A DNA stretch of 64,000 nt. It comes from Martelella alba. GTDB lineage: Bacteria > Pseudomonadota > Alphaproteobacteria > Rhizobiales > Rhizobiaceae. Of this stretch, positions 10,907 to 30,991 are shown piece by piece; the stretch's first letter is position 1, and each line of letters opens with the position of its first letter. The notes under the pieces were generated by a model. It was not told where the DNA came from and ran no database searches. It saw nothing but the letters and a program-made list of their open reading frames with translations. Location of the stretch: positions 248,001 through 312,000 of the forward strand of contig NZ_VHLG01000001.1 of NCBI RefSeq assembly GCF_006516955.1. Direction: 5' to 3'. The position numbers and the translations under genes were made by a program.

Positions 10907-12070
10907 TCATTTCCCCTTGTACCAGGTTTCCAGCTTATCAATTGCGCTGTCGGCCATATCAGGATGTATTGCCATGTAGTGCTTGAAGATCTGAGCAGCG
11001 CCATCAAGGCTGTGGCCCGTGATTGCGCAAATCTCTTGCAGCTCGCAGCCCGCCAGCGCCAGCCATGTTACGGCAGTGTCTCGCAAATCCTGATCGCGAA
11101 GTGTTGCGAGCGATGGCATTGTTTTGGCGGCAAAGCGACGAACACGATTGTATTGCTTGCGGTAATGATCCGGCTTGAACGGTTCCCAGACGCGCTCATC
11201 AAGGATCACATATGGTGAAATTACCTCAGCTTCAGCACGTCGTTTCGCTGCGTTTTCCAATCGTTGCTTTAGTTCTTCCGCTTCTGGCATGTCGACCCGT
11301 GCGCGGGTTTTCGACTGTCTCAACCGCAAGCGGCCATTCTGGCGACTGGAAAACTGGAGATCCAGCCTGTCTCCTTGTCGCTGACCAGACCAGACAGCCA
11401 GTATAATCATGTCACCAATCTCATAACGGCCAAGCTCATCAGCAACTTTGACAAAATGTGCGATTTCTTCCTTCGTTCCAGCGCGCACGCGCGGGTCAGG
11501 CGATTTCATTTTCAGCTTGTGTGCAGGATTAACTGTTATCGCCGGGAGCTTTCCGCGATCCATTGCCCAGGAATAGGCAATGCCAAGTATGCGCATGGCA
11601 CCATTCGCGACATGCAGCCCTTTCGCCTGACGCAAATCATCATAAATTCCTTTGCAGATCGGTTTCGTCACCGCTTCTGCTTCTGATTTCCAGACTTCCT
11701 TAGCATACATCTCGATCGAACGGATCTTCTGAAGGTAGTCCATTTGTGTTTTTGATGCGCGATCACGAAAATCCTGAGAGGTCGCGTAATCCCGCAGAAG
11801 GCTTTCCACCGTGTAAAAACTTAGCTTTTCCGGCAGTGAAGCCGGTTTCTGTTTGGGCTTGATCTTTGGGTTCTTCTTTATGATCACCAGTTGGTCTTCG
11901 AACGTGCGCGACCAATCCAGTGCTTCACCGGCCGTCATCCAGGTGCCGCTAACTTCGCTTATAAGATCAAAGCCTTGCAGGCCGCGCTCGCGCAGTGATG
12001 GCGATGGTATGAAACGTGGGCGGCCATTGCGCCAGGTGACGTATTTGATTTTGGGATCCTGTTTACTCAT
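10907..12070 (-). CDS. int: Tyrosine recombinase (phage integrase)
   Basis: 387-aa site-specific recombinase that integrates the phage into the tRNA-Lys 3' end. C-terminal catalytic residues can be placed: R231 (WSGQRQGDRL), R330 (DQDLRDTAVTW), H353 (ITGHS) and nucleophile Y365 (IFKHYM). The position normally filled by the first histidine of HxLR is Q327. The N-terminal half (about 80-180) fits a SAM-like core-binding domain (FRDRASKTQMDYLQKIRS). The frame is open further upstream, but ATG 12070 has AAGGA at a good distance and the upstream gene ends at 12090. Transcribed leftward towards attL, as expected for an integrase beside its att site. Confidence 0.92.
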   Translation of the reverse strand: MSKQDPKIKYVTWRNGRPRFIPSPSLRERGLQGFDLISEVSGTWMTAGEALDWSRTFEDQLVIIKKNPKIKPKQKPASLPEKLSFYTVESLLRDYATSQDFRDRASKTQMDYLQKIRSIEMYAKEVWKSEAEAVTKPICKGIYDDLRQAKGLHVANGAMRILGIAYSWAMDRGKLPAITVNPAHKLKMKSPDPRVRAGTKEEIAHFVKVADELGRYEIGDMIILAVWSGQRQGDRLDLQFSSRQNGRLRLRQSKTRARVDMPEAEELKQRLENAAKRRAEAEVISPYVILDERVWEPFKPDHYRKQYNRVRRFAAKTMPSLATLRDQDLRDTAVTWLALAGCELQEICAITGHSLDGAAQIFKHYMAIHPDMADSAIDKLETWYKGK

Positions 12071-12089
12071 GACTGTTGATCCTTTGTGT

Positions 12090-12455
12090 TCAGAAAGGCC
12101 CTTCGATATCGGCCAGATGCCGAGGCAGATAAGGGCAGCCAAGCCCGTTGCAGGGGCTGTCGCGCCGATGCAGGTGCAAGCCATTGAAGCTGCCCATGCC
12201 GTCGTGCGCGCACATATCGCAGACGCCGGCGTCGGTGAAATCCACAGCAATGCCGTTCACTTTGGTGATGCTGCGAGCTGAAACATCGTCGCGGGTTTTG
12301 GTGCAAATGCATTCACCGTCGAAGCCGGTGAAGATGCCCCATCGTTTGGTGCCGGGACATGATGTGAAGGTGATGTGGTCCCCAGCTCGCAGATAGTGAC
12401 GGGCGCGATCAGTGGCGCGGATAAGTTCGCGGCGTTGTTCTTCGGTGAGCGGCAT
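12090..12455 (-). CDS. Phage hypothetical protein, cysteine/histidine-rich
   Basis: 121 aa. The first 30 residues form a charged helix (LTEEQRRELIRATDRARHYL); the rest contains several Cys and His (FTSCPGTKRW, GECICTK, GVCDMCAHDGM, LHLHRRDSPCNGLGCP), suggesting a metal-binding or small beta-rich domain. No family recognised. ATG 12455 has GGAGG 10 nt upstream. The open frame extends further, but that region is the end of the preceding gene. Sits between integrase and a conserved small gene in the leftward operon. Confidence 0.65.
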   Translation of the reverse strand: MPLTEEQRRELIRATDRARHYLRAGDHITFTSCPGTKRWGIFTGFDGECICTKTRDDVSARSITKVNGIAVDFTDAGVCDMCAHDGMGSFNGLHLHRRDSPCNGLGCPYLPRHLADIEGPF

Positions 12456-13926: not shown

Positions 13927-14055
13927 GAATATTCGAAGTTGCGACAGCGATGTAAGCAATCGACTGGACCGGGGCGCCAGCTACGCAAGCCTTAGCGTGA
14001 ATAGGTCAGCCATTTCCTCTTGAACGGCACGTTTGAGGCTGCGATATCGAATGAC

Positions 14056-14670
14056 ATGATGACAGAATTGCGCGATAAGCAGCTGGCCTGGCTGAACCAC
14101 ATAACTGAGGCAACCGGCCTGACAATCACCGAGATTGCCCGAGCGGCTGGCCTGCACCCATCAACGCTTACGCGCTTTCGATATGCTGACAAGAGCGGGC
14201 ATAGTCTCACATCCTCTACCGTGCATAAGATCGAAATGGCGACCCGTGTAGCGGCTTACGACACAGGCAGACCGAAAATCAGCGCATTGCTTCAACCTGA
14301 AGCATCGCCGTTTCTGCCTTCTGATGATGGCAACCCTCTTGAGCTCGCCTTGCGGACGATCGCCGGACGATCGCAGAGCGTTACCTTATGGAAACTCGAA
14401 ACCGACAGCCTTTCGGCCATTGGGTATCCGAGGAACATGATTGTCGCGGTGGATGCCGATGCCACACCTCGTAACGGCGACGCTGTGTGCGCGCAAAGAC
14501 CTGGGTTCCGGCGCCAAACGCAAGACCTCATCTTTCGGGTTTACCGCGCACCATACCTGCTTTCAGCGTCCGATCGCACTGCGCCGGAAGCGCCAGAGAT
14601 CATCGACAATGAAACCACTCTCATCATCGGTGTCATCGTGGGCGGCTTCACGCTGCGTGACAGGAATTAA
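14056..14670 (+). CDS. CI-like repressor paralogue 1 (HTH plus S24-like domain)
   Basis: 204 aa, N-terminal helix-turn-helix (GLTITEIARAAGLHPSTLTRF) followed by a C-terminal domain resembling LexA/S24 (DATPRNGDAVCAQ ... LIFRVYRAPYLL). The Ser-Met of a self-cleaving S24 peptidase is not evident (SLSAIGYPRN), so RecA-stimulated autocleavage is doubtful. The open frame starts with TTG at 14020, but the first ATG is at 14056 and I prefer it; no strong ribosome-binding site for either. It faces the second repressor tail to tail, leaving 5 bp between stops. Confidence 0.75.
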   Translation: MMTELRDKQLAWLNHITEATGLTITEIARAAGLHPSTLTRFRYADKSGHSLTSSTVHKIEMATRVAAYDTGRPKISALLQPEASPFLPSDDGNPLELALRTIAGRSQSVTLWKLETDSLSAIGYPRNMIVAVDADATPRNGDAVCAQRPGFRRQTQDLIFRVYRAPYLLSASDRTAPEAPEIIDNETTLIIGVIVGGFTLRDRN

Positions 14671-14675
14671 GCTTT

Positions 14676-15287
14676 TCAGGATGGCTTGCGAATTACACCG
14701 ATAGCGGTCCCGGCGATCGACACGCGATCGTCATCAACCTGCTCGGGGCGTTGCGGTCCAAGACGCATGGAATGCGTCGTGATAAATGGCGCCTGGTAAA
14801 GCCGCATCACTGTTTCGGCAATACCGCGAACGGGATCGACAATCTGGGCGATGACGATATCACCAGACTTTGCCCGCCTGTTCTGATCAATGATGACCAC
14901 ATCACCCGGCATAACACCGATGCCGTCAAGCGCTGCACCCTTCATGATCCAGGCTTCAACGCCATTGCGTGATGATCTTGCGGCCTTCACCGCAAGCGAG
15001 ATCCACTCGGGCTGAGGCTCATTGTCATTGTCGAACGGTAATGCGTCCGGCTCCGCAAGATTATTGAGGTTTCGCCCAGGCATTTGCCCGGGCCGGAAAC
15101 CGGAATAGCGCGCAACGTTTTCGAGCGTGGACTGCGTGATACCGACAGACCCCGTCCGATCGTTAAAATAGCGCGTGAGTGTCGATGCAGCCATACCAGA
15201 ATTCAAGGCAAGTTTCGACAGCGACAGGTTCATGTGATCCGCCACTGCTTTAAGCCAAACTTTGGTATCGCGCTGATTATCGATCAT
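14676..15287 (-). CDS. CI-like repressor paralogue 2 (HTH plus S24-like domain)
   Basis: 203 aa. HTH region LSLSKLALNSGMAASTLTRYF, then a C-terminal S24-like domain (GVMPGDVVIIDQNRRAKSGDIVIAQ). The usual catalytic Ser is replaced (GAALDGIG), a substitution common in alphaproteobacterial phage repressors, so induction may use an antirepressor rather than self-cleavage. The ATG at 15287 was chosen because further upstream the frame runs into the operator. It sits opposite the Cro-like gene, in the standard CI position. Confidence 0.82.
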   Translation of the reverse strand: MIDNQRDTKVWLKAVADHMNLSLSKLALNSGMAASTLTRYFNDRTGSVGITQSTLENVARYSGFRPGQMPGRNLNNLAEPDALPFDNDNEPQPEWISLAVKAARSSRNGVEAWIMKGAALDGIGVMPGDVVIIDQNRRAKSGDIVIAQIVDPVRGIAETVMRLYQAPFITTHSMRLGPQRPEQVDDDRVSIAGTAIGVIRKPS

Positions 15288-15337
15288 GCGCGCTAATTTA
15301 TTCTGTGGAAGTGCTAACGCAGTCACAAAAAAACACC

Positions 15338-15365
15338 TTGCAGAATAAGCAATATCGCTTATGCA
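15338..15365 (+). promoter_or_regulatory. Rightward early promoter (PR-like) with operator in its spacer
   Basis: TTGCAG (15338-15343), 16-bp spacer, TATGCA (15360-15365). The operator overlaps the spacer and first two bases of the -10, so bound repressor would exclude RNA polymerase. It leads to the Cro-like gene at 15398. Confidence 0.6.
15346..15361. promoter_or_regulatory. Repressor operator OR (16 bp)
   Basis: TAAGCAATATCGCTTA: arms TAAGC/GCTTA around AATATC. Matches OL at 13866-13881 in 14 of 16 positions when both are read in the direction of transcription. Confidence 0.65.
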
Positions 15366-15397
15366 TAATTGCAAAGCGGTTCGCAAGGGTGATTTGC

Positions 15398-19186: not shown

Positions 19187-19486
19187 ATGGCCGATATCCT
19201 GCACCTTTCAGCAAAGCTTGTTCGCCTTCTCGGCCGGATAAGAAAGGCAGAAGCAGTCATGCGCATGGCCGCAGACAGCGACAATGCAATCCGCATTGGC
19301 AAGGGATTTTCCTACTTCACACTGCCTGACGGCAGGCATGTCAACGCTGATGATGTTCAACGGTTCATCGATGACGGTTTTCTGATTGAGGTACAAGACG
19401 GGCTATTCAACCGGGGGGGGCAGACGCTCAAGGTCGCCGAGCCCCTGCCAACCTTCACCACGGGGCGGAGGCGTAGGGAAAAATGA
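19187..19486 (+). CDS. Phage hypothetical protein
   Basis: 99 aa. Helical N-terminus (ILHLSAKLVRLLGRIRKAEAV) and a beta segment GFSYFTLPDGRHVNADDVQRFIDDGFLI. No family recognised. Starts one base after the preceding stop with GGAGAG upstream, and overlaps the primase start by 4 bp, so it is probably expressed with the primase. Confidence 0.6.
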   Translation: MADILHLSAKLVRLLGRIRKAEAVMRMAADSDNAIRIGKGFSYFTLPDGRHVNADDVQRFIDDGFLIEVQDGLFNRGGQTLKVAEPLPTFTTGRRRREK

Positions 19487-20562
19487 GCCGTTTCTCGATT
19501 GCCAAAGACCGGGCCAAGGATGATCTCGAAAACATTATCGAGACACTGTTTCATGCCTCGAAACGCCACAAACGGACAGCGTTGTGGAATGTGGCCAATC
19601 CTTATCGCGCCAAGAGCAAGCCAGATCAAATGTGCGTATGGCTGACCGGAAGCCGGCGCGGTGCCTGGAAAGACTTTGTTTCCGGTGACAAAGGCGATGC
19701 CATCGACCTCGTTGCCTATGGGATATCCGGTGATGTGAACGATGACAGCCGCATGGCTGCCGTCGAATGGCTGGAAGACCGTTACGGGCTGCGCGACATG
19801 AGCGCAGAACGCCGGCAGGCGATGGAAGCCGAAGGAAGAAGCCGCAGGCTCGCTGCGGAGGCCAAGGAAGCGCGCCGGCGCACCAGCAATATCGAGCGGG
19901 CCCGCAAGTTTTTCTACGGTTGTTCCGAGGTTATCAGCGGGACGCCGGCTGAGCGGTATCTTGCCAGTCGTGGGGTTACGCTTTCCGCTATCCCCTCCCT
20001 TGGCCATGCAATCCGTTATCGTCCGAATTGTGAATACTGGATGGATGATGACCGGCCGGAAATGCCGGCGATGATCCATGGCATGGTGACGGTTGATGGT
20101 CGCATTGCAGCCAACCACTACACATTTCTGCGGGCTGATGGCAGCGCCAAGGCTGATGTCATCAAGCCGAAGCTAATGTTCCCGGAAACATCAGGCCTTG
20201 TCATCCGCCTTACGAATGGTGCGGCCGGGATCGGCGCCGAGAAGGCAGCAGTCCAGGGCATAACCTCGATCGTTGGTGTGGTTGAGGGGTGTGAGGATGG
20301 CTATTCGGCTGCGGTTTCAAACCCGGAACTGCGCATGTGGGCGACGGGGTCGCTTCCCGGGCTTTTGAGCCTGCCGGACCACGCAAGCGCGAGCGCTTAC
20401 ATCATCTTTCAAGACAATGACTGGGGAAAACCGCAGGCGCGCGCGCTGTTTCGCAGAGCCGTCGCGCGGATCAGGAGCTTCGGCAAGCCGGTGCAGGTTC
20501 TCGCAATGCCGGCAAGCTGGGGGAAGGACGTGAACGACGCGCTCAACAGGAGGCAATGGTGA
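19483..20562 (+). CDS. Toprim-domain phage primase-like protein
   Basis: 359 aa. N-terminal region WLTGSRRGAWKDFVSGDKGDAIDLVA resembles the DUF7146-type primase front end; basic helical linker at about 105-150; C-terminal Toprim fold with VVEGCEDGYSAA (catalytic Glu) and YIIFQDNDWG (DxD-like) then KPVQVLAMPASWGKDVNDAL. No CHC2 zinc-binding motif is visible. Likely synthesises primers at the phage fork, or acts with the ATPase encoded two genes downstream. ATGA overlap with the previous gene. Confidence 0.82.
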   Translation: MSRFSIAKDRAKDDLENIIETLFHASKRHKRTALWNVANPYRAKSKPDQMCVWLTGSRRGAWKDFVSGDKGDAIDLVAYGISGDVNDDSRMAAVEWLEDRYGLRDMSAERRQAMEAEGRSRRLAAEAKEARRRTSNIERARKFFYGCSEVISGTPAERYLASRGVTLSAIPSLGHAIRYRPNCEYWMDDDRPEMPAMIHGMVTVDGRIAANHYTFLRADGSAKADVIKPKLMFPETSGLVIRLTNGAAGIGAEKAAVQGITSIVGVVEGCEDGYSAAVSNPELRMWATGSLPGLLSLPDHASASAYIIFQDNDWGKPQARALFRRAVARIRSFGKPVQVLAMPASWGKDVNDALNRRQW

Positions 20563-21434
20563 AACTGGATATAGCAACACTTGATGTGATTGAGGCGGCG
20601 GCGGCCGTAGCACATTCTGCCGTCAGCCAGCTCTACGGCATGTTCAATCAAACGGATGGACTGGACTGGACCGGAAGCGGGCTTGAGGGCGATGCGCTGA
20701 ATGCCGCGATTTATGACATGGGGCAGTACTGCACCATACGCCAGGCTCATGGAGAGCAGCTCTGGCTGAAATGGCTTCACGGAAAGAAGCTGACTGAGGA
20801 TGTTCCGGAAAGCGGGAAGTTTCAAGACGTCGAAACGACCCGGAAATGGGCATACCAGCTTTTCGCACATCTGATGCTGACCACGGTCGCGAAATTCTCG
20901 GCCGAGAAGGCGCGCGTGATCGAGACGTCTGCCAGGAAGCGGCAGAAGGCAGCGCCGACGCCGGCACTTGAGGACACGATTTTCGAACCGGTCGGCAATC
21001 TCGACGAGCTCGAGCAATCGCATGTCGCATTCCTGAAAAATATCGGCCGGGTCACCGGGCCGACCTCGGCGCCTGTGCCTGTTCCAGTCCAGGCGCCGGC
21101 GGATCCTTCCGTAATCACCCCCCTGACAATCGGAGAAAAGAGCGATGAAAAAGGCCCAGCAAATGGCGAGCCGCAAGAAGGCGGCGAGGATGGAAAGGCA
21201 GCGGGCGCTCCACAGGAAAACGGTGCGGTGGTGGAAGGCAACGGTGTTGCGGCCGCTGATGCAAACAGGCCGGTCGGGCAGCACCCGGATAAGCAGGATG
21301 CAAAGGCTGCAGGATCTCGGACTGTGGTGACCCCTCCCCTTGTGCCGAAAAAGAAAACCAGCCAACAGCGCGGAAAGACCCGCCGATCGCGCACTGCGAA
21401 ACTGAGCGGTGCGCCGAAATCGCCACGAAACTGA
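20556..21434 (+). CDS. Phage hypothetical protein with low-complexity tail
   Basis: 292 aa. Residues 1-150 look folded and helical (VIEAAAAVAHSAVSQLYGMF, FAHLMLTTVAKFSAEKARV); residues 165-292 are low complexity, rich in A, P, G, K and E (PVPVPVQAPADPS, GEPQEGGEDGKAAGAPQENG). It lies between primase and helicase, so a loader or replication-associated role is possible but unproven. A second reading frame inside the tail (21145-21330) looks gene-like and is listed separately. Start overlaps the primase stop by 7 bp. Confidence 0.65.
   Translation: MVKLDIATLDVIEAAAAVAHSAVSQLYGMFNQTDGLDWTGSGLEGDALNAAIYDMGQYCTIRQAHGEQLWLKWLHGKKLTEDVPESGKFQDVETTRKWAYQLFAHLMLTTVAKFSAEKARVIETSARKRQKAAPTPALEDTIFEPVGNLDELEQSHVAFLKNIGRVTGPTSAPVPVPVQAPADPSVITPLTIGEKSDEKGPANGEPQEGGEDGKAAGAPQENGAVVEGNGVAAADANRPVGQHPDKQDAKAAGSRTVVTPPLVPKKKTSQQRGKTRRSRTAKLSGAPKSPRN
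21145..21330 (+). CDS. Candidate nested gene, 61-aa basic protein
   Basis: Lies wholly inside the low-complexity tail of the previous gene, in a different frame. A good Shine-Dalgarno GGAGA sits 8 nt before the ATG. The product is strongly basic (KKAQQMASRKKAARMERQRAL) with a Trp-containing middle (KTVRWWKATVLRPL). Third-codon-position GC in this frame is high, about four in five by eye. The overlap with an open longer gene keeps confidence low. Confidence 0.35.
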   Translation: MKKAQQMASRKKAARMERQRALHRKTVRWWKATVLRPLMQTGRSGSTRISRMQRLQDLGLW

Positions 21435-21500: not shown

Positions 21501-21510
21501 GGTAAATTTG

Positions 21511-23388
21511 ATGCAGGAACAGGGGACAAGCGGAGGGGCAGCACGGGTTGGCGGACTGATCGCCGGGGCGAGTGCGCGCGTGAAGCTTGAGAAAAAGCGT
21601 GCTGCTGCTGCCTATCCGCCGCCGGGAAAGCCACTTGAAGGCATTTCACCGGGGGAGTGGCAATTGCAGGGCTATGTCGATGAGACAGGGTTTCTGCCGC
21701 AAAATTGCCCAGTGCGGCCGCTCGGCTATGACGGCGAGAATTTCTATTTCGTCGACACTATGGGGCAGGTTTTCAACACAGGTGACAGTGCTCTCGGCGT
21801 TGAGCGCCTGCAGAAGCTTTTCGCCGGTCATGAAGATTTCCTCTATTGGGCGTGGCCGGCCAAGGACGTCAAGAAGATGTTCGCGGATCCGGGTTTCAAA
21901 TCTGAGCGGGTGCGGCGTGATCTTTTCGCAGCCTGCAGGGCGCGCGGGGCCTGGACGATGAGCGACACGGTGCGCGGCCGGGGCGCCTGGCGCGATGACC
22001 AGGGCAATCTTCTGCTTCATTGCGGCGATGCCATGTGGATCGACGGACAGCTGGAAGATACCGGCGAATATGACGGATATTTCTATCCCCGCCGGCCGAG
22101 AAGCTTTGAGCCCTGGGCTGAGCCGGTGAAGCAGGAGGATAATCCTGCAACGCAGCTGTTCGAGATCCTGCGGACGTGGAATTTCGCGCGTGGCGACATT
22201 GATGTGATGTTCCTTGTCGGCTGGATTGGCGTTGCGATGCTGGGCGGTGCACTTGAATGGCGCCCGTCTGTCTTCCTTGTCGGTGATGCCGGTACCGGAA
22301 AATCAGAGCTGTTCGGCAAGAACGGGCTGATACGATCGGTTCTCGGCCGGATGATGGTGGCAACGACCAATGCGACGGAAGCCGGTCTTTATCAGCTTGT
22401 TGGTCATGACAGCGTTCCAATCGCTATCGATGAGCTCGAGGGCGAAGACGGGCAGGATCAGGCGCAGAAAGTAATCAAGATGGCGCGTGATGCCGCGTCC
22501 GGATCCGTGCGCATCCGTGGCGGACAAAATCACAAGGGCGTTGAATTCCAGGCGCAGAGCTCGTTTGCCTTTTCCGGTATCAACCCGCCGCCGATACCGC
22601 CGGCAAACCTTACGCGACTTGTGATCATCGAAATGATGCCGCTGAAAGTGACTAGCAACAAGGCGCCGGTGCTTTCTGCAGCTGAGACAGTCGGCCCGCG
22701 ATTACTGCGGATCCTTGCTGATGGCTGGCAGGACCTCGAATACAAGCTGGACCAGTATTATGCCATTCTGCGCGAAGCCGGGCATAACAGCCGAGGCCAA
22801 AAGACCTTTGGAACCTTCCTCGCCCTCGCCCATACGCTTATCGGCGACGATGGGCTGAAAAAGCTTGGCCTTCCATGTGAGGCAAACAGCGATACGTATA
22901 AGTGGGCCGAATGGCTCAAACCTGATGCTCTGCCGGAACTTGAAGGCGGCGGAGAGACATGGCGCCAGGCGATTGAATTTATCCTGACCAGCGAAATTCA
23001 GGCTTATGCCGGCGGTGTGCGCAAGACGGTCGCCGAGGTGATTGAGGATCTGCGCGACGGACGCGGTGACAGCAGCCATGAAGTGGCCTTCAATGATACG
23101 AGAACGATGCTTGGCCATGCAGACCTTGGCCTGCTCTCGGCCGGCAAGGCCGGCTATATCCTCGCAGTGCCGCTCTCGTCGAAGAAACTCGGCCGTGCAC
23201 TTATGGATACGCCTTTCGGTGATCCAGGCGGCAATGGTTCGTGGAAATGGGCATTACGACGCGCTCCACCGCAGATCGTGTCCAGGGATATCGATGCTGG
23301 GGGCGCGCCAGACAATCGTATCAGGATCGCGGGGCGGCGAACGCGCTGCCTGTTCATTCACCTAAGGCAATTTGAAGCATCAACATGA
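21511..23388 (+). CDS. Phage replicative helicase/ATPase
   Basis: 625 aa P-loop ATPase. Walker A GDAGTGKSE at about residues 258-265, Walker B region VPIAIDELEGEDG near 305, a downstream SFAFSGINPP sensor-like stretch and an arginine-bearing PANLTRLV. The large N-terminal region (PLGYDGENFYFVDTMGQVFN ...) resembles DUF927/VirE-type helicase front ends. With the Toprim protein two genes upstream this makes a primase-helicase pair. The frame begins at TTG 21508, but ATG 21511 is the better start. Its stop overlaps a non-coding symmetric array that follows. Confidence 0.8.
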   Translation: MQEQGTSGGAARVGGLIAGASARVKLEKKRAAAAYPPPGKPLEGISPGEWQLQGYVDETGFLPQNCPVRPLGYDGENFYFVDTMGQVFNTGDSALGVERLQKLFAGHEDFLYWAWPAKDVKKMFADPGFKSERVRRDLFAACRARGAWTMSDTVRGRGAWRDDQGNLLLHCGDAMWIDGQLEDTGEYDGYFYPRRPRSFEPWAEPVKQEDNPATQLFEILRTWNFARGDIDVMFLVGWIGVAMLGGALEWRPSVFLVGDAGTGKSELFGKNGLIRSVLGRMMVATTNATEAGLYQLVGHDSVPIAIDELEGEDGQDQAQKVIKMARDAASGSVRIRGGQNHKGVEFQAQSSFAFSGINPPPIPPANLTRLVIIEMMPLKVTSNKAPVLSAAETVGPRLLRILADGWQDLEYKLDQYYAILREAGHNSRGQKTFGTFLALAHTLIGDDGLKKLGLPCEANSDTYKWAEWLKPDALPELEGGGETWRQAIEFILTSEIQAYAGGVRKTVAEVIEDLRDGRGDSSHEVAFNDTRTMLGHADLGLLSAGKAGYILAVPLSSKKLGRALMDTPFGDPGGNGSWKWALRRAPPQIVSRDIDAGGAPDNRIRIAGRRTRCLFIHLRQFEAST

Positions 23389-23540
23389 CGTTCTCTACCG
23401 AAAGGTGCAGAGCACCGCCGAATTTTGTCTTTTTGGATAGGGGAACCCGCACCCTGACCCGTCGCAATGCGAGTAATTGCGCGGTTGACCTTCTGCGCTC
23501 TGGCGTAGGCTTTATTCATGCGTGTGGTGGCGCGAAATTC

Positions 23541-23794
23541 TGTCCCGGCTTTGTCCCGGATTTGTCCCGCTCAATTTTCACCATAAGCCATTGTTTTAAT
23601 ACAGCGATTTCTATTCGTGGGACAATGGGACAACGGGACAGGAAAAACTCTCACATACACATGCGCATACGCACATACATGAGGAATAATTTTGTCCCGT
23701 TGTCCCATTGTCCCACATATATACCTATATCATTGATATATATGAATAAATATAGAAATAAACATTGGGACAAAGCCGGGACAAAGCCGGGACA
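23541..23794. repeat. Dyad-symmetric array of twelve GGGACA motifs; candidate origin or packaging/regulatory site
   Basis: Four triplets. TGTCCC at 23541, 23552, 23563 (11-bp pitch); GGGACA at 23619, 23627, 23635 (8-bp pitch); TGTCCC at 23693, 23701, 23709 (8-bp); GGGACA at 23767, 23778, 23789 (11-bp). The inner triplets form a perfect 24-bp inverted repeat (23617-23640 with 23693-23716) about a centre at 23666.5; the outer triplets are symmetric about 23667.5. A 30-nt strictly alternating pyrimidine-purine tract, 23652-23681, sits exactly on the dyad. AT-rich DNA lies between the third and fourth triplets. Position after the helicase gene and before terS fits an origin or a pac-like site. 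Confidence 0.85.
23652..23681. repeat. 30-nt alternating pyrimidine/purine tract at the array centre
   Basis: Strict Y-R alternation over 30 nt, from CACATACACATG through to ACATACATG, of the kind that can adopt left-handed Z-DNA under negative supercoiling. Centred at 23666.5, the same dyad as the inner inverted repeat. Confidence 0.75.
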
Positions 23795-23809
23795 GGTTTT
23801 GAGGGCGGC

Positions 23810-24325
23810 ATGAATAAACAATCTGAAAATACTGCTGATGAGGGATCGGGTGAGTTCGCCGATGCCGGTGCGGCGTGGGAGCGCCGGGAGGCCGAGCGGC
23901 TCGGCCGGGACCGGAAGGCAAAGCCGAGGCGTAAGCCCGGCAGGCCACCAGGATCGACGAACAAGCGATCGCGTGACCTTCTCGCCCTCCAGGAGGAGAA
24001 GGGTTACGCGGACCCGGTTGAGGCCCTAATGCAGTACTGCACCATGCCGGCCGAGGCGCTGCATGCCTGGATCTGCGAGCGCGAAAGCGGCAAGAAGCCG
24101 TCTTTGTGGGAGGTTATGCAGCATCAGGCCTCCATGCGGGTTCAACTGGCGCCCTTCCTGCACGCGAAGATCATGAGCATGCCGGCCGCAATTGAGGAGC
24201 TGTTGCCGTTGCTGATGATCAACCTCGGCACCAATCAGCTCGACCAGGCGCGTCAAATTGCCGAGCAAAAGGGCATCCCGATCGGCTCACCTCTATTGGA
24301 AGGAAAAGCCAATGAAAACAAGTAG
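23810..24325 (+). CDS. terS: Small terminase subunit (podovirus type)
   Basis: 171 aa. Acidic, disordered start, then a basic hook RRKPGRPPGSTNKRSRDLL, typical of DNA-binding small terminases, and a helical oligomerisation region (YADPVEALMQYCTMPAEALHAW; LAPFLHAKIMSM). Immediately follows the GGGACA array, consistent with recognition of a packaging site nearby. The frame is open further upstream inside the array; ATG 23810 with GAGGGCGGC before it is preferred. Confidence 0.7.
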   Translation: MNKQSENTADEGSGEFADAGAAWERREAERLGRDRKAKPRRKPGRPPGSTNKRSRDLLALQEEKGYADPVEALMQYCTMPAEALHAWICERESGKKPSLWEVMQHQASMRVQLAPFLHAKIMSMPAAIEELLPLLMINLGTNQLDQARQIAEQKGIPIGSPLLEGKANENK

Positions 24326-24850: not shown

Positions 24851-26539
24851 ATGAGCGACAGAAACGCGGTAATTACACGCGATGATCTGCGTGCCCTTTC
24901 TGCGGCTGAGGAGCGCGCGCTTGTCGCAAGGTATGAGATTGACGAAAAGTTCAATCCGTTCTCATACACCCCGCCTGGTCCAGTTGCTCAGGCCTTTATC
25001 CTGTCCAATCTCCCTACGGCTGTCATCATGGGGCCGCTCGGCGGCGGCAAGACCACCGCCTGCACCTTCAAGCGTATCTATGAGGCAACACAGGCACCAA
25101 TCGCCTGGCACCCTGCTGATGGAAAGCCGACGCGTATGTGCCGCTGGATCGTTCTGCGCGATACGTTCAGATCAGCCGAAAAGACCGTTCTCGAGAGCTG
25201 GAAACAGTGGTTTCCGAAAGGGTACCCGGGATCAAGCTGGGCGGGTGGGAATGATCGCCCAGTGACGCATACACTGCGATTTATGGGGTCAGATGGCATC
25301 CGTATCGAGGCAATCACCGAATTTGCGGGGCTTGGTGAAAACTCGATCGAGACGATGATGAAAGGCCGTGAATATTCAGGCGGCTGGCTCAACGAGACAG
25401 ATACGCATGCAGATGGATCGATCGATGACATGGAACAGCGTGTCGGCCGCTATCCATCTGCTGCAATCCTGTTGTCGGTCGATGAGCTGGAAGATCTCGG
25501 CCGGAAGCTGGGGCATCGGCTTGTCTCTGGCCAGCGGAAATCGGTCGTTATCGGCGACATGAATGCGCCAACAATCGACAACTGGACGTATCGTGTTCTC
25601 GTCAAGTTGAAAACACCGGATCGCCACCTGTTCGAACAGCCTTCAGGCCGGGCCGATGATGCGGAAAATCGGTATAATCTCGAGCCGGATTACTACGATC
25701 GGATTGTTCGCAACCAGGAAGATTGGTTCATCCGGCGTATGGTCGATAATAAATTCGGCTATTCGCGCGCCGGCAAGCCGGTCTATGATGGCTTTGACCG
25801 TCCCCGGCATGTCGCCCGATCACGCATCATTGTGGATCCACGCCTGGCGCTCGGCATCGGTGTCGATATCAGCATGAACACGCTCAACCCTGCGGCCGTC
25901 TTCGGGCAGGTGCATGCGCCAGGCAGGATTATGGCGGTGCGCGAATTATACCTCGGCCATGGTGTCGGCGCTGCGCGCTTTGGCGAGGCTATGTTGCAAT
26001 GTCTTTCAGAGCATTTTTCGAATGCCTCGAAAGTGCGCCTGTGGGTCGACCCCGCCGCAGAATATGGCGCCGATCGCGAAGGCGGCCAGCTCACAGCAAT
26101 GGAAACGCTTTCGGTGATCCTCGGCATTCCGGTTCTCATTCCTGCTGGCGGATCAAATGAGCTTGGCATGCGCCTCGATGCCGTCAAGACAGAACTCAGG
26201 GGCTATATCGAGCCAAATACACATCTGCAGATCGACCCGGAAGGCTGCCCGCTTCTGCTTGAGGGGTTTGAGGGGAAATATCGCTATAAGCGCAAGCCTG
26301 AAAAAGCATCGACCGATTACGAGGAGCAGCCGGAAAAGACGCATCCGTGGTCTGATTTGCAAGATGGCCTGCAATATCTCATCCTCGGTTTCCGCGGTCG
26401 CGCTGGCATTATCCGCGGTGCTGCAGACAAGGATCGGGAACCGAAAAATAGTGGCGCCTGGTCAAGTCAGAAGCGCAGCAGTTCGACGCCCTGGGGACAG
26501 CAGGGTTTTGACCCGCATGCAGTTGGCCTGAAGCGATGA
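24851..26539 (+). CDS. terL: Terminase large subunit
   Basis: 562-aa packaging motor. The ATPase domain has Walker A GPLGGGKTT at about residues 60-68 and a Walker B/GWLNETDT region near 180. The C-terminal RNase H-like nuclease domain begins with IGVDISMN (first metal-binding Asp), followed by WVDPAAEYG and a late KTHPWSDLQDGLQY acidic site. This is the podovirus-type TerL. AGGAG lies 10 nt before the ATG. It starts the virion operon; stop overlaps the next gene. Confidence 0.92.
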   Translation: MSDRNAVITRDDLRALSAAEERALVARYEIDEKFNPFSYTPPGPVAQAFILSNLPTAVIMGPLGGGKTTACTFKRIYEATQAPIAWHPADGKPTRMCRWIVLRDTFRSAEKTVLESWKQWFPKGYPGSSWAGGNDRPVTHTLRFMGSDGIRIEAITEFAGLGENSIETMMKGREYSGGWLNETDTHADGSIDDMEQRVGRYPSAAILLSVDELEDLGRKLGHRLVSGQRKSVVIGDMNAPTIDNWTYRVLVKLKTPDRHLFEQPSGRADDAENRYNLEPDYYDRIVRNQEDWFIRRMVDNKFGYSRAGKPVYDGFDRPRHVARSRIIVDPRLALGIGVDISMNTLNPAAVFGQVHAPGRIMAVRELYLGHGVGAARFGEAMLQCLSEHFSNASKVRLWVDPAAEYGADREGGQLTAMETLSVILGIPVLIPAGGSNELGMRLDAVKTELRGYIEPNTHLQIDPEGCPLLLEGFEGKYRYKRKPEKASTDYEEQPEKTHPWSDLQDGLQYLILGFRGRAGIIRGAADKDREPKNSGAWSSQKRSSSTPWGQQGFDPHAVGLKR

Positions 26540-26982: not shown

Positions 26983-27115
26983 GCAGCTTGCGGATCTGGC
27001 GCGGCAACAGGCGGAAGTTGACCAATCCGTCAGCAGCAAGGCCGGGCGCAATACCGGTAGCAAGCTTCTGTCATTCCTTTCCGGCTCGGGTGTAGATACC
27101 CTCGGCGGTGCCTGA
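26915..27115 (+). CDS. Small phage virion-associated protein
   Basis: 66 aa: DLFGGNSGKDLKAQQEANQRKQLADLARQQ (in pieces), a charged helical region, then a Gly/Ser-rich end SFLSGSGVDTLGGA. Position just before the portal matches small connector-associated genes of podoviruses. It begins 68 bp inside the previous gene, with GTGAGAGATGG around the start. No named family. Confidence 0.55.
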   Translation: MGDLFGGNSGKDLKAQQEANQRKQLADLARQQAEVDQSVSSKAGRNTGSKLLSFLSGSGVDTLGGA

Positions 27116-28665
27116 TGAGCAAAACACAACGGCTGAAAGACCGCCGCGAGGCGGCCAAACGTGAGCGTGACGAATTCCAGCCGCTGCTCGATGAGGCCTA
27201 TCAGTACGCAATCCCCTACCGTAAATCGGCGAATTCCGAACGCAGCGGAACCTCGCGCGGCGAGAAACGTGTCGACCAGGTCTATGATCATACAGCGATC
27301 GACAGTGCGTTCCGTTTCGCCGGAAAACTTCAGCAAGATTTCTGGCCTGCAGGTCAGGACAATTTCAAGCTCGAGCCCGGCCCGGTCATAATCTCAAAAG
27401 AAGACCGTGATCAGCTTACCAAGCAGCTCGCGCCCATTACACAGGTGGCTGGCGCCTTCTTCGATGATGGCGACTGGGGCATGGCATTTCATGAAATGGC
27501 GCTTGAGCTCTCGGCCGGGACCGGTGCAATTCTCATGGATAGCTCTGAAGACCCGGAAAAACTCTGGGAACCGATGAGCGTTCCGATCGATGAGCTATTG
27601 CTTGAGAATGGCCCGCGCAATCGCATTTCCGGTATCTTCTGGACCCGCCGCATGACCGTGCGCGTCGTCAGCGAAACATGGCCAAACGCTCCTCTCGGCG
27701 AAAATCTGAAAGAAAGGCTGAAGCAGAAGCCGGAAGACGAAATCAAGGTCTACCAGGATACCGTTTACGACCCGAAAAAGAAAAAATGGGTCATGACAGT
27801 CTGGTGTGATGACCAGACGGCAGCGCTGCATGAGGTCGAAAGTCGGACAAATCCGTGGCTATCGCCGCGTTATTTCCGCGTTCCGGGTGAGACGCAGGGC
27901 CGTGGCCCGGTCATGCTCGCCATGCCGACAATCAAAACGCTCAACACAACAGCCAGACTGCAGCTTCAGGCGGCGGCAATTGCGATGCTTGGCGTCTATA
28001 CAGCTGTGGATGACGGTGTGTTTAATCCCGATCTTGCAGTCCAGGCGCCGGGCGCTTTCTGGAAGGTAGCCCGCAATGGCGGAACGCTTGGGCCGTCGGT
28101 GCAGCGCTTCCCGGATCCTCGCCTTGATCTTTCAAATATGGTTCTCAATGACATGCGCATGGGTGTGAAAGCAACCATGATGGATCAGAGCTTGCCGACA
28201 GACGGCGCGGCCGTCAGATCAGCGACGGAAATTCTTGAGCGGGTCAAGAGACTGGCATCAGACCATCTTGGTGCTTACGGGCGGCTGGTGGAGGAAGTCA
28301 CCATTCCCGCCGTCAAGCGTGTGCTCGAGCTTGCCTATAACAAGGGTTACATCGCCGAGGATATTCCGATTGATCAGCTTCTGGTGCGTATTCGGATCAA
28401 GAGCCCGCTGGGAATTGCGCGCGAGGCACAGCGGATCGAAAAAATCGTTCAATGGCTGCAGATGGTGCTGATGATCCTTGCCGATCGCGCCGGCCGCGTT
28501 GCCAAGGTCGAGGATGCCTTGATCATGGTCGGCCGCGATTTCGGCGTTCCGGAAGAACTGATCACATCAGCTGATGAGCGAAAGGCAATGGACGAACAAG
28601 AAGCGCGGGCGCAGGCCCTGGCGGCTGCCGCTCAGGTTGCCGGCGCTGGAGCGGGGATGGGATGA
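27115..28665 (+). CDS. Portal (head-tail connector) protein, T7/BPP-1-like
   Basis: 516 aa. Forms the dodecameric ring through which DNA enters and leaves the capsid. Features of the podovirus head-tail connector family are visible: early YAIPYRKS, then GKLQQDFWPAGQDNFKLEPG, a middle FRVPGETQGRGPVMLAMPTIKTLN, and PTDGAAVRSATEILERVKRL. The C-terminal 30 residues are Ala/Gln-rich. Length is close to T7 gp8 (about 535). Starts at the last base of the previous gene's stop. Confidence 0.92.
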   Translation: MSKTQRLKDRREAAKRERDEFQPLLDEAYQYAIPYRKSANSERSGTSRGEKRVDQVYDHTAIDSAFRFAGKLQQDFWPAGQDNFKLEPGPVIISKEDRDQLTKQLAPITQVAGAFFDDGDWGMAFHEMALELSAGTGAILMDSSEDPEKLWEPMSVPIDELLLENGPRNRISGIFWTRRMTVRVVSETWPNAPLGENLKERLKQKPEDEIKVYQDTVYDPKKKKWVMTVWCDDQTAALHEVESRTNPWLSPRYFRVPGETQGRGPVMLAMPTIKTLNTTARLQLQAAAIAMLGVYTAVDDGVFNPDLAVQAPGAFWKVARNGGTLGPSVQRFPDPRLDLSNMVLNDMRMGVKATMMDQSLPTDGAAVRSATEILERVKRLASDHLGAYGRLVEEVTIPAVKRVLELAYNKGYIAEDIPIDQLLVRIRIKSPLGIAREAQRIEKIVQWLQMVLMILADRAGRVAKVEDALIMVGRDFGVPEELITSADERKAMDEQEARAQALAAAAQVAGAGAGMG

Positions 28666-29960: not shown

Positions 29961-30112
29961 CTGTTCCGGTTTACCGGACCGCCTGCCGGGTAGGCTTAAG
30001 GCAGACAACGGGCGGACCTGCATGAGCAATGGCCTCTCCGGCCAAGCCGGACCCTGAGCTGCACGCGGCCTCTCCAACCGGTGTTTTCAGCAAAACATCT
30101 TGGAGATGCAAA

Positions 30113-30991
30113 ATGACCATCAATGCAAATGCCTGGAATACGACCCAGTTTGCCAACCGTGCGATGCACATCTATCAGCAGAAGGGCAACCGCCTGCGTC
30201 CGACCGTTTCCCAGGCGACGCGTATCGAGAAGAATGAAAAGGCGGTTTTCTGGCTCGCCGGAAAGTCCGTCGCCAAGAAGAAAACCCGCCGCGAGCGCAA
30301 TGTCCCCGGCAACGCCGGACGCAAGAATTTTGAAGTCCCGCTCGAGACATGGGTCGCCTTCGATACCGTCGAAGAATATGACGTCGATCGCATGACGGTC
30401 GATGAAAAGGAAATCGTCTATCAGAGCGGCGCCAACGCGCTCGGCCGGGCAACCGATATCGAAATCTACGCTAAGATGGCCGCCGCCAAGACAACCTTTG
30501 ACACTGGGCTCGACTTCTCGGCCGGAGCCTTCTCGGCCGCCAACGCGCTGGCGCTTTGCGCTGCTCTGCAGAATGACAAGGTTCCGTGGAATGGCGAAGT
30601 CTATTGCGGTCTTCCCTCCCTGCAGTGGAACCAGTTCATCGCCAACAAGGTCGTGAATTCGTCCGACCATGTCGGCCCGAACGGCCTTCCCTTTGTCCAG
30701 GCGACCGACAGCCGCTTCTGGAATGGCGTCAACTGGTTCCTTTTCGTCGAAGAGGATGCGGAAGACCTGTATCCCGTCCCTGCTGAAAATCAGCAGGATC
30801 TGTTCATCTGGCACAAGTCCGCGATGGGATGGGGCAACAATACCGATCTCCGTGTCATTCCGCAGTGGGATAACTACGAGGACTGCTGGACGATCAACAT
30901 GCAGGCCAAGGGCGCAGCAACCACCATGCAGGAGGGGAATGGGGTCAAGCGCTTCCGTACCTCGACCAATTCCGCCATCGCCATCATCTGA
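30113..30991 (+). CDS. Major capsid protein (Phage_capsid_2/BPP-1-like)
   Basis: 292 aa. TINANAWNTTQFANRAMHIYQQKG, then a long basic region RIEKNEKAVFWLAGKSVAKKKTRRER (in pieces), and C-terminal QWDNYEDCWTINMQAKGAA, typical of the capsid family of BPP-1-like podoviruses rather than of HK97 size variants. The start is ATG 30113 with TTGGAGATG upstream; the frame extends to 30029 but without a ribosome-binding site. Confidence 0.88.
   Translation: MTINANAWNTTQFANRAMHIYQQKGNRLRPTVSQATRIEKNEKAVFWLAGKSVAKKKTRRERNVPGNAGRKNFEVPLETWVAFDTVEEYDVDRMTVDEKEIVYQSGANALGRATDIEIYAKMAAAKTTFDTGLDFSAGAFSAANALALCAALQNDKVPWNGEVYCGLPSLQWNQFIANKVVNSSDHVGPNGLPFVQATDSRFWNGVNWFLFVEEDAEDLYPVPAENQQDLFIWHKSAMGWGNNTDLRVIPQWDNYEDCWTINMQAKGAATTMQEGNGVKRFRTSTNSAIAII

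Follow-up and report, generated by a model that had tools for sequence, protein, structure and literature searches.

Array of short sites downstream of the phage helicase gene

The DNA analysed here, hereafter the window, is a 64,000-nt stretch of Martelella alba (contig NZ_VHLG01000001.1, positions 248,001 to 312,000), and all coordinates refer to it. In the NCBI taxonomy, Martelella is placed in Aurantimonadaceae. The window contains an element that, judged by its sequence, is a prophage; it occurs in IMG/VR as a 36.9-kb contig that, by arithmetic from locus coordinates, equals window positions 10612-47502. Within this element, between the gene for the phage helicase and the presumed small terminase gene (terS), lies an array of GGGACA motifs. 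When dozens of related viruses were compared at the sequence level, the layout of the array was the same but the DNA word differed, and a single helicase residue varied along with it. With a probability of about 0.85, we take the array to be the replication origin of the prophage, read by the phage helicase. Its parts are as follows.

23541-23568, minus strand: left outer triplet, three TGTCCC starting at 23541, 23552 and 23563 (pitch 11)
23569-23618, no strand: left spacer, low in guanine plus cytosine (GC) relative to the locus
23619-23640, plus strand: left inner triplet, three GGGACA starting at 23619, 23627 and 23635 (pitch 8)
23641-23692, no strand: centre, including an alternating purine-pyrimidine run of 30 nt (23652-23681)
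23693-23714, minus strand: right inner triplet, three TGTCCC starting at 23693, 23701 and 23709 (pitch 8)
23715-23766, no strand: right spacer, the most AT-rich part of the array and a candidate melting region
23767-23794, plus strand: right outer triplet, three GGGACA starting at 23767, 23778 and 23789 (pitch 11)

The initial annotation had described four triplets in the order reverse, forward, reverse, forward, with an outer pitch of 11 and an inner pitch of 8, and the motif positions bear this out. The perfect inverted repeat that it had placed at the inner pair was recovered at 23617-23640 and 23693-23716 (24 bp, not 25), as was the symmetry to within 1 bp, the inner triplets being centred on 23666.5 and the full array on 23667.5. 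A repeat scan also gave a longer inner inverted pair of 29 nt (93%). GGGACA was found 24 times in the window, compared with 25.65 copies expected from shuffles, and 12 of the 24 lie within the 254 bp of 23541-23794; with 0.10 copies expected in 254 bp, the Poisson probability of at least 12 is about 2e-21, with no correction for how motif and place were chosen. CRISPR and simple direct iterons were ruled out, given that the sites are without unique spacers and alternate in orientation. When the 700-bp array region was compared with 50,697 phage records in a DNA search, no match was obtained. A second match of this region in its own genome was discarded, as its coordinates showed it to be the array aligned with its reverse complement.

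A frame (23385-23813) is open across the array in the window. The initial annotation had put this long frame down to the repeats. When 13 close loci are compared, the frame is not conserved over the array itself; the first ~42-45 codons from 23385 are similar in several relatives. Read from the first ATG close to the end of the helicase gene, the frames in these close loci measured 142 (window), 82, 77, 62, 57, 44, 44, 42, 42 and 2 aa; L108 and L113 had no such ATG, L105 had an unrelated 200-aa frame together with an insert, and in L002 a second ATG opened a 42-aa frame. This lack of conservation over the array led us to reject a coding explanation for it.

Conserved geometry and changing words in related loci

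In three genomes with helicase identities of 64-79%, all four groups recurred at this junction, with (T/A)AGACA in place of GGGACA. The initial annotation had named loss of the symmetric pattern in close relatives that share the flanking genes as a refuting result; in such relatives the symmetric figure was kept and the motif altered. For more distant helicases (34-40% identity), found in 12 genomes from this family, the figure was built from GGAAC, CTAAC, CAACC, GCAAC or GTAAC. Across loci, the words included GGGACA, TAGACA, GGAAC, GGTTAC, GTACC, GTGAG and others, and the geometry was kept. A pattern search of 397 genomes of the order matched 2, one of them the window's own, and the reversed-pattern control matched 0 among the rows listed. 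A degenerate pattern search retrieved 43 IMG/VR contigs, 23 of which had at least one of six query genes from the window by tblastn. The other 20 (L024, L028, L029, L033, L036-L038, L043, L044, L047, L049, L054, L056-L061, L064 and L066) had the inner pattern and none of the six genes; many were plain inverted tandem 8-mers, and these contigs were not counted as members.

Array occurrence was measured with a motif-free detector, which called a 5-mer pair at pitch 7-9, a gap of 25-85 and the reverse-complement pair. The 105 helicase loci comprised the window, L001, L002, 14 genome regions, 79 profile-found loci (of 80; L104, the window's own contig, was removed as a duplicate), 4 pattern-found contigs and 5 phage-record loci; L025, L048, L055, L062 and L086, found by the array pattern, are a biased part of this sample. 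The counting run was limited to DNA downstream of the helicase and GC-only words were dropped, since an unrestricted run miscalled loci such as L085 and L145. At least 9 sites were detected in 87 of the 105 loci (at least 10 in 86), 8 sites in 1, and none in 17. Among the loci found by the helicase profile alone, at least 9 sites were present in 64 of 79, and in 60 of the 72 where at least 3 kb follows the helicase. Applied to whole loci, the detector found at least 10 sites in 88 of 105 real loci versus 4 of 525 Markov-1 sequences; these served as the control because the figure is symmetric and reversal is uninformative. A relaxed scan of the 17 loci (no null control) gave clear arrays in L085, L129, L130, L166, L176 and L180; the array of L151 is cut by the contig end, that of L073 is irregular and 4.7 kb away, and L150, L153, L169 and L170 have weaker candidates; in L161 and L167 the contig ends soon past the helicase.

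In a separate scan of 10 phage-record loci, again with no null control, Synechococcus MinM1 (L072 9701-9919) had 12 regularly placed GTGAG sites. Irregular arrangements were seen in Serratia MQ-4 (14 GTAAC; L184 from 12306), Pseudomonas ZRG1 (10 CTAAC; L073 from 14339) and Acinetobacter Acjo_20 (10 TGTAA; L071 from 3104). The faecal scaffolds L069 and L070 also had clustered words, and nothing clear was seen in L183, L185, L186 or L187.

Site numbers were compared in a non-redundant set of 67 array loci (90% identity over helicase residues 61-560). Reading left outer, left inner, right inner and right outer groups, the commonest layouts were 3-3-3-3 (24 loci), 4-2-3-3 (7), 3-2-3-3 (4), 4-3-3-3 (4), 3-3-3-4 (4), 4-2-2-4 (3) and 3-2-3-2 (3). 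Halves of 6+6, split as 3+3, 4+2 or 2+4, were the commonest (34 of 67), followed by 5+5 (7 loci); a narrower limit, which lost the outermost right sites, had given 23 of 67, and the wider limit was chosen afterwards. The total was 12 sites in 36 of 67 loci. The inner pitch was 8 in 168 of 238 steps, the outer pitch peaked at 11 and 12, and a flank of equal length held a mean of 0.24 chance copies of the locus's own word. Given that the half-total stays at six while the split changes, these data suggest that each subunit of a hexamer has a DNA site of its own.

The centre and spacers were also examined in this set. The longest alternating purine-pyrimidine run between the inner groups ranged from 11 to 32 nt (median 21), and a run of at least 15 nt was present in 82% of the 67 loci; among the controls, 1340 shuffled centres and 1340 random pieces from the same loci, the proportions were 0.07% and 0.3%. 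When supercoiled, such a tract could adopt the Z-DNA form, or it could give flexible steps where two hexamers meet. Mean GC over loci was 0.44 in the left spacer, 0.59 in the centre and 0.33 in the right spacer, with 0.63 for the locus, and the right spacer had lower GC than the left in 49 of 66 loci. Right after the array in the window is an AT element, AATAAACAAT, at 23813-23822; AATAAA/ATTAAA-type elements lay no more than 150 bp from the array in 39 of 67 loci, versus 3 of 670 random pieces.

Helicase residue 611 and the array word

The helicase and its predicted C-terminal hairpin are encoded as follows.

21508-23388, plus strand: helicase/initiator, 626 aa; Walker A at ~259-266, AAA+ core, C-terminal domain at ~451-626
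23317-23361, plus strand: helicase codons 604-618, predicted wing-like beta-hairpin; residue 611 is encoded at 23338-23340 and is Arg here, Gln in relatives with TAGACA

By sequence, the helicase matched only phrog_21086 (1e-59; no function) and phrog_35358 (DNA primase). Searched against Pfam, including DUF927 and D5_N/Primase_Cterm, the window helicase had no family match; 25 relatives gave only scattered weak matches, mostly of AAA type, and a helicase profile gave only weak matches in the PDB. An AlphaFold2 model (mean predicted local distance difference test score 84.6) was compared by fold: the best Foldseek match was Cch of the staphylococcal cassette chromosome mec (SCCmec; 5dgk_A; E 5.9e-8, template modelling (TM) score 0.41, 13% identity), followed by African swine fever virus PrimPol, NrS-1 and poxvirus D5/E5 and, lower, by PriRep1 of the Staphylococcus aureus pathogenicity island (SaPI) SaPI5. 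Among the 50 rows listed, E-values ranged from 5.9e-8 to 4.2e-6 and TM-scores by query from 0.26 to 0.41. The modelled fold thus resembles AAA+ helicases of the Cch/SaPI/D5 type. In the same model, strands 604-607 and 610-618 form a hairpin with its turn at 608-609.

In the closest comparison, changes unique to the window affected 10 of 321 conserved helicase columns, and 9 of the 10 fell in residues 463-622. The corresponding counts were 9/171 in the primase, 17/339 in the presumed large terminase (terL), 17/335 in the portal, 3/29 in a 292-aa protein and 4/44 in terS. Residue 611 was then tabulated against the word. From 91 labelled loci, 28 with other motif classes, whose register against GAC is unsure, were excluded, and the remaining 63 were reduced to 50 at 95% identity (L129, L130, L135 and L151 were labelled by hand from the relaxed scan). 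Residue 611 was Gln in 32 of 32 AGAC loci, Lys in 11 of 11 GGAAC loci and Glu in the single CGAC locus (1/1); in the GGAC loci it was Arg in 3, Ser in 2 and Pro in 1. Within the 67-locus set, 29 loci have Gln at 611, and all 29 have AGAC.

Word switches were examined by pairing all seven GGAC or CGAC loci, each with its nearest AGAC relative (core identity 44-85%). Eleven columns differed in all seven pairs. Of the 50 helicase columns invariant in 488 same-word pairs, residue 611 differed in seven of seven switch pairs and no other column in more than one. The four closest pairs, picked after the table was made and leaving out L128, L129 and L141 (nearest AGAC relatives 44-54%), gave the same outcome, residue 611. 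No comparable column was found in the primase (4 pairs, 20 fixed columns), terL (3 pairs, 43 columns) or the portal (2 pairs, 53 columns). For terS (3 pairs) no column qualified, but with a single control-fixed column this comparison had almost no power. On a tree of helicase residues 61-560, from which the hairpin was left out, GGAC needs 6 changes (5 of them forced by starred branches) and GGAAC needs 2, indicating that word switches are repeated events. Most pairs seen at residue 611 (Gln/A, Arg/G, Lys/G and Glu/C) agree with textbook residue-base contacts. From this covariation, we infer that the array word is recognised by the C-terminal domain of the helicase.

Origin reading, alternatives and known systems

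Because the motif covaries with helicase residue 611, the origin reading is supported. The helicase would bind each 6-bp motif through its C-terminal beta-hairpin, with residue 611 reading the second base. On either side of the dyad, six sites would nucleate one hexamer, the two lying head to head, an arrangement known from origins of simian virus 40 (SV40) and proposed for those of SaPIs; the two hexamers may then melt the AT-rich spacers, mainly the right one, after which the TOPRIM primase would prime bidirectional synthesis. The initial annotation had offered an origin, a packaging start or a late control site, with the reader undecided. The covariation, which was not seen in primase, terL or portal, favours the first; the array lies just ahead of terS in all 22 loci with a terS match, so a second role in packaging or late transcription is possible. 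The neighbouring genes are listed below.

10907-12250, minus strand: integrase, a recombinase matching Phage_integrase
14020-14670 and 14676-15386: S24-like repressor candidates, both below the Pfam S24 cut-off
19483-20562, plus strand: TOPRIM-type primase (DUF7146, Toprim_3), same replication module
20556-21434: hypothetical protein of 292 aa between primase and helicase
23810-24325, plus strand: presumed terS, starting 16 bp past the last motif; named by its position before presumed terL
24851-26539: presumed terL, named by position
27115-28665: head-tail connector
30029-30991: capsid

The presumed terS and terL had no family match in family or profile searches. The 292-aa protein evolves much faster than its neighbours (40% identity to L087, versus 79% for the helicase).

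The strongest alternative, which we nevertheless regard as unlikely, is a pac or cos site for packaging, to which TerS would bind and which would be cleaved in the centre between two flanking sets of sites, on the model of pacL-pacC-pacR in SPP1 or of cleavage beside cosB in lambda. The array-to-terL match distance was 859-2014 bp (median 1063; 65 loci), much steadier than that from the helicase end to the array (-5 to 4174 bp), and a terS match started within ~330 bp of the inner array in 22 of 22 loci with such a match. The presumed TerS also has a GRPPG segment, which we take to be AT-hook-like, and its relatives carry GRPKG, GRPPG or GRPAG. However, it is the helicase with which the motif covaries; residues 61-90 of the window terS are 28/30 identical to those of L087 despite a different motif; no terS column passed the switch test, low as its power was; and packaging is polar, whereas the array is symmetric.

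Less probable still is an operator or late promoter bound by a regulator at the early/late boundary. The array does sit between replication and head genes, and a GGTTGAC element (23485-23511), between the helicase stop and the array, is conserved in 12 of 13 close loci. In most of these loci a TAG-type hexamer comes 15 nt after the element, which is overlapped by the partly conserved 42-45-codon frame from 23385. A promoter scan gave no sigma-70-type promoter, though; the covariation is with the helicase; and 12 sites in 254 bp, arranged 6+6, would be unusual for an operator. A protelomerase telomere site, which in telRL of N15 has nested inverted repeats around an alternating purine-pyrimidine centre, is highly improbable. 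Most loci here do have an alternating centre, but the prophage lies in a 782-kb contig and its recombinase (10907-12250), the gene covered on this point, matches an ordinary Phage_integrase, the centre is not a perfect palindrome, and the motifs covary with the helicase.

Several observations weigh against the array being an origin read by the helicase. The array keeps a steady distance from terL and a variable one from the helicase, and a packaging site would explain this steady closeness to the terminase genes too; the one-column terS test is compatible with TerS as reader of the motif. GGAC loci L128, L129 and L141 carry Ser or Pro rather than a basic residue, and the inner sites of L128 have mostly A, so that the residue-611 code is not one to one. 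Under the strict rule 17 of 105 helicase loci have no array, and L134, L148 and L071 have none downstream of the helicase even in the relaxed scan. By 5-mer count, 33 of 67 loci depart from an exact 6+6. Finally, TM-scores to helicase structures are below 0.5 by query, and the window helicase has no Pfam family. We weighed the residue covariation above the terminase closeness, a role shared with packaging being possible.

Taken together, our best reading is a predicted origin of the SaPI and SV40 kind that would load two helicase hexamers, centred on a long alternating purine-pyrimidine tract. A wider proposal, for which we see roughly even odds, is that such arrays form a widespread origin class, with its own DNA site for each subunit of a double hexamer (six per half whatever the split), a conserved alternating purine-pyrimidine, Z-prone centre, and a short recognition code in a C-terminal helicase hairpin that permits word switches with the geometry retained. 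A search of open-access literature by title and abstract opening, with subscription journals largely outside it, found no description of this phage origin class. If correct, the origin reading would allow the replication origin and initiator of many tailed phages, a large group, to be located from sequence alone. It would also supply over 10 naturally switched words for studying initiator-origin co-change, and a test of one DNA site per subunit in a hexameric helicase.

In SaPIs, the C-terminal domain of Rep recognises repeats downstream of its own gene (PMC7581432), and the origins mirror that of SV40, with opposed repeats loading two head-to-head hexamers (PMC9894130). The present system shares with them a predicted self-loading AAA+ helicase, opposed short repeats downstream of its gene, probable C-terminal reading and two proposed hexamers. 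It differs in belonging to tailed-phage prophages with a separate TOPRIM primase, in its nested triplets (pitch 8 and 11, 6+6 sites, alternating centre), and in a predicted origin that is sometimes kilobases from the helicase, near the terminase genes. An AT-rich segment is a defining mark of SaPI origins, and the array shares one with origins of this type (right spacer mean GC 0.33 versus 0.63). SCCmec Cch is the best fold match of the phage helicase, although at only 13% identity and a TM-score of 0.41; the related Cch2 recognises direct repeats of AAGTG, and its C-terminal domain on its own can bind the putative origin (PMC7581432), with three repeats in that case and a dyad of twelve here. 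The SV40 T-antigen origin likewise has opposed short motifs that load two hexamers around a dyad, but T-antigen is described as reading it with an N-terminal domain (PMC7581432), whereas the evidence here points to the C-terminus. In the Vibrio phage-inducible chromosomal island-like element (PLE), which is attacked by a phage nuclease directed at its origin, the DNA-binding domain of RepA and the repeats of the origin covary and switch (PMC8263062); initiator and repeats covary and switch here too, although the PLE initiator is a different one and its repeats are given as three semi-palindromes of ~30 bp. By analogy with PLE, phages may switch words to escape nucleases that target the origin, or because elements resident in one host compete. 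We file the array with the origins of self-loading helicases, as a variant of that type and not as a separate kind.
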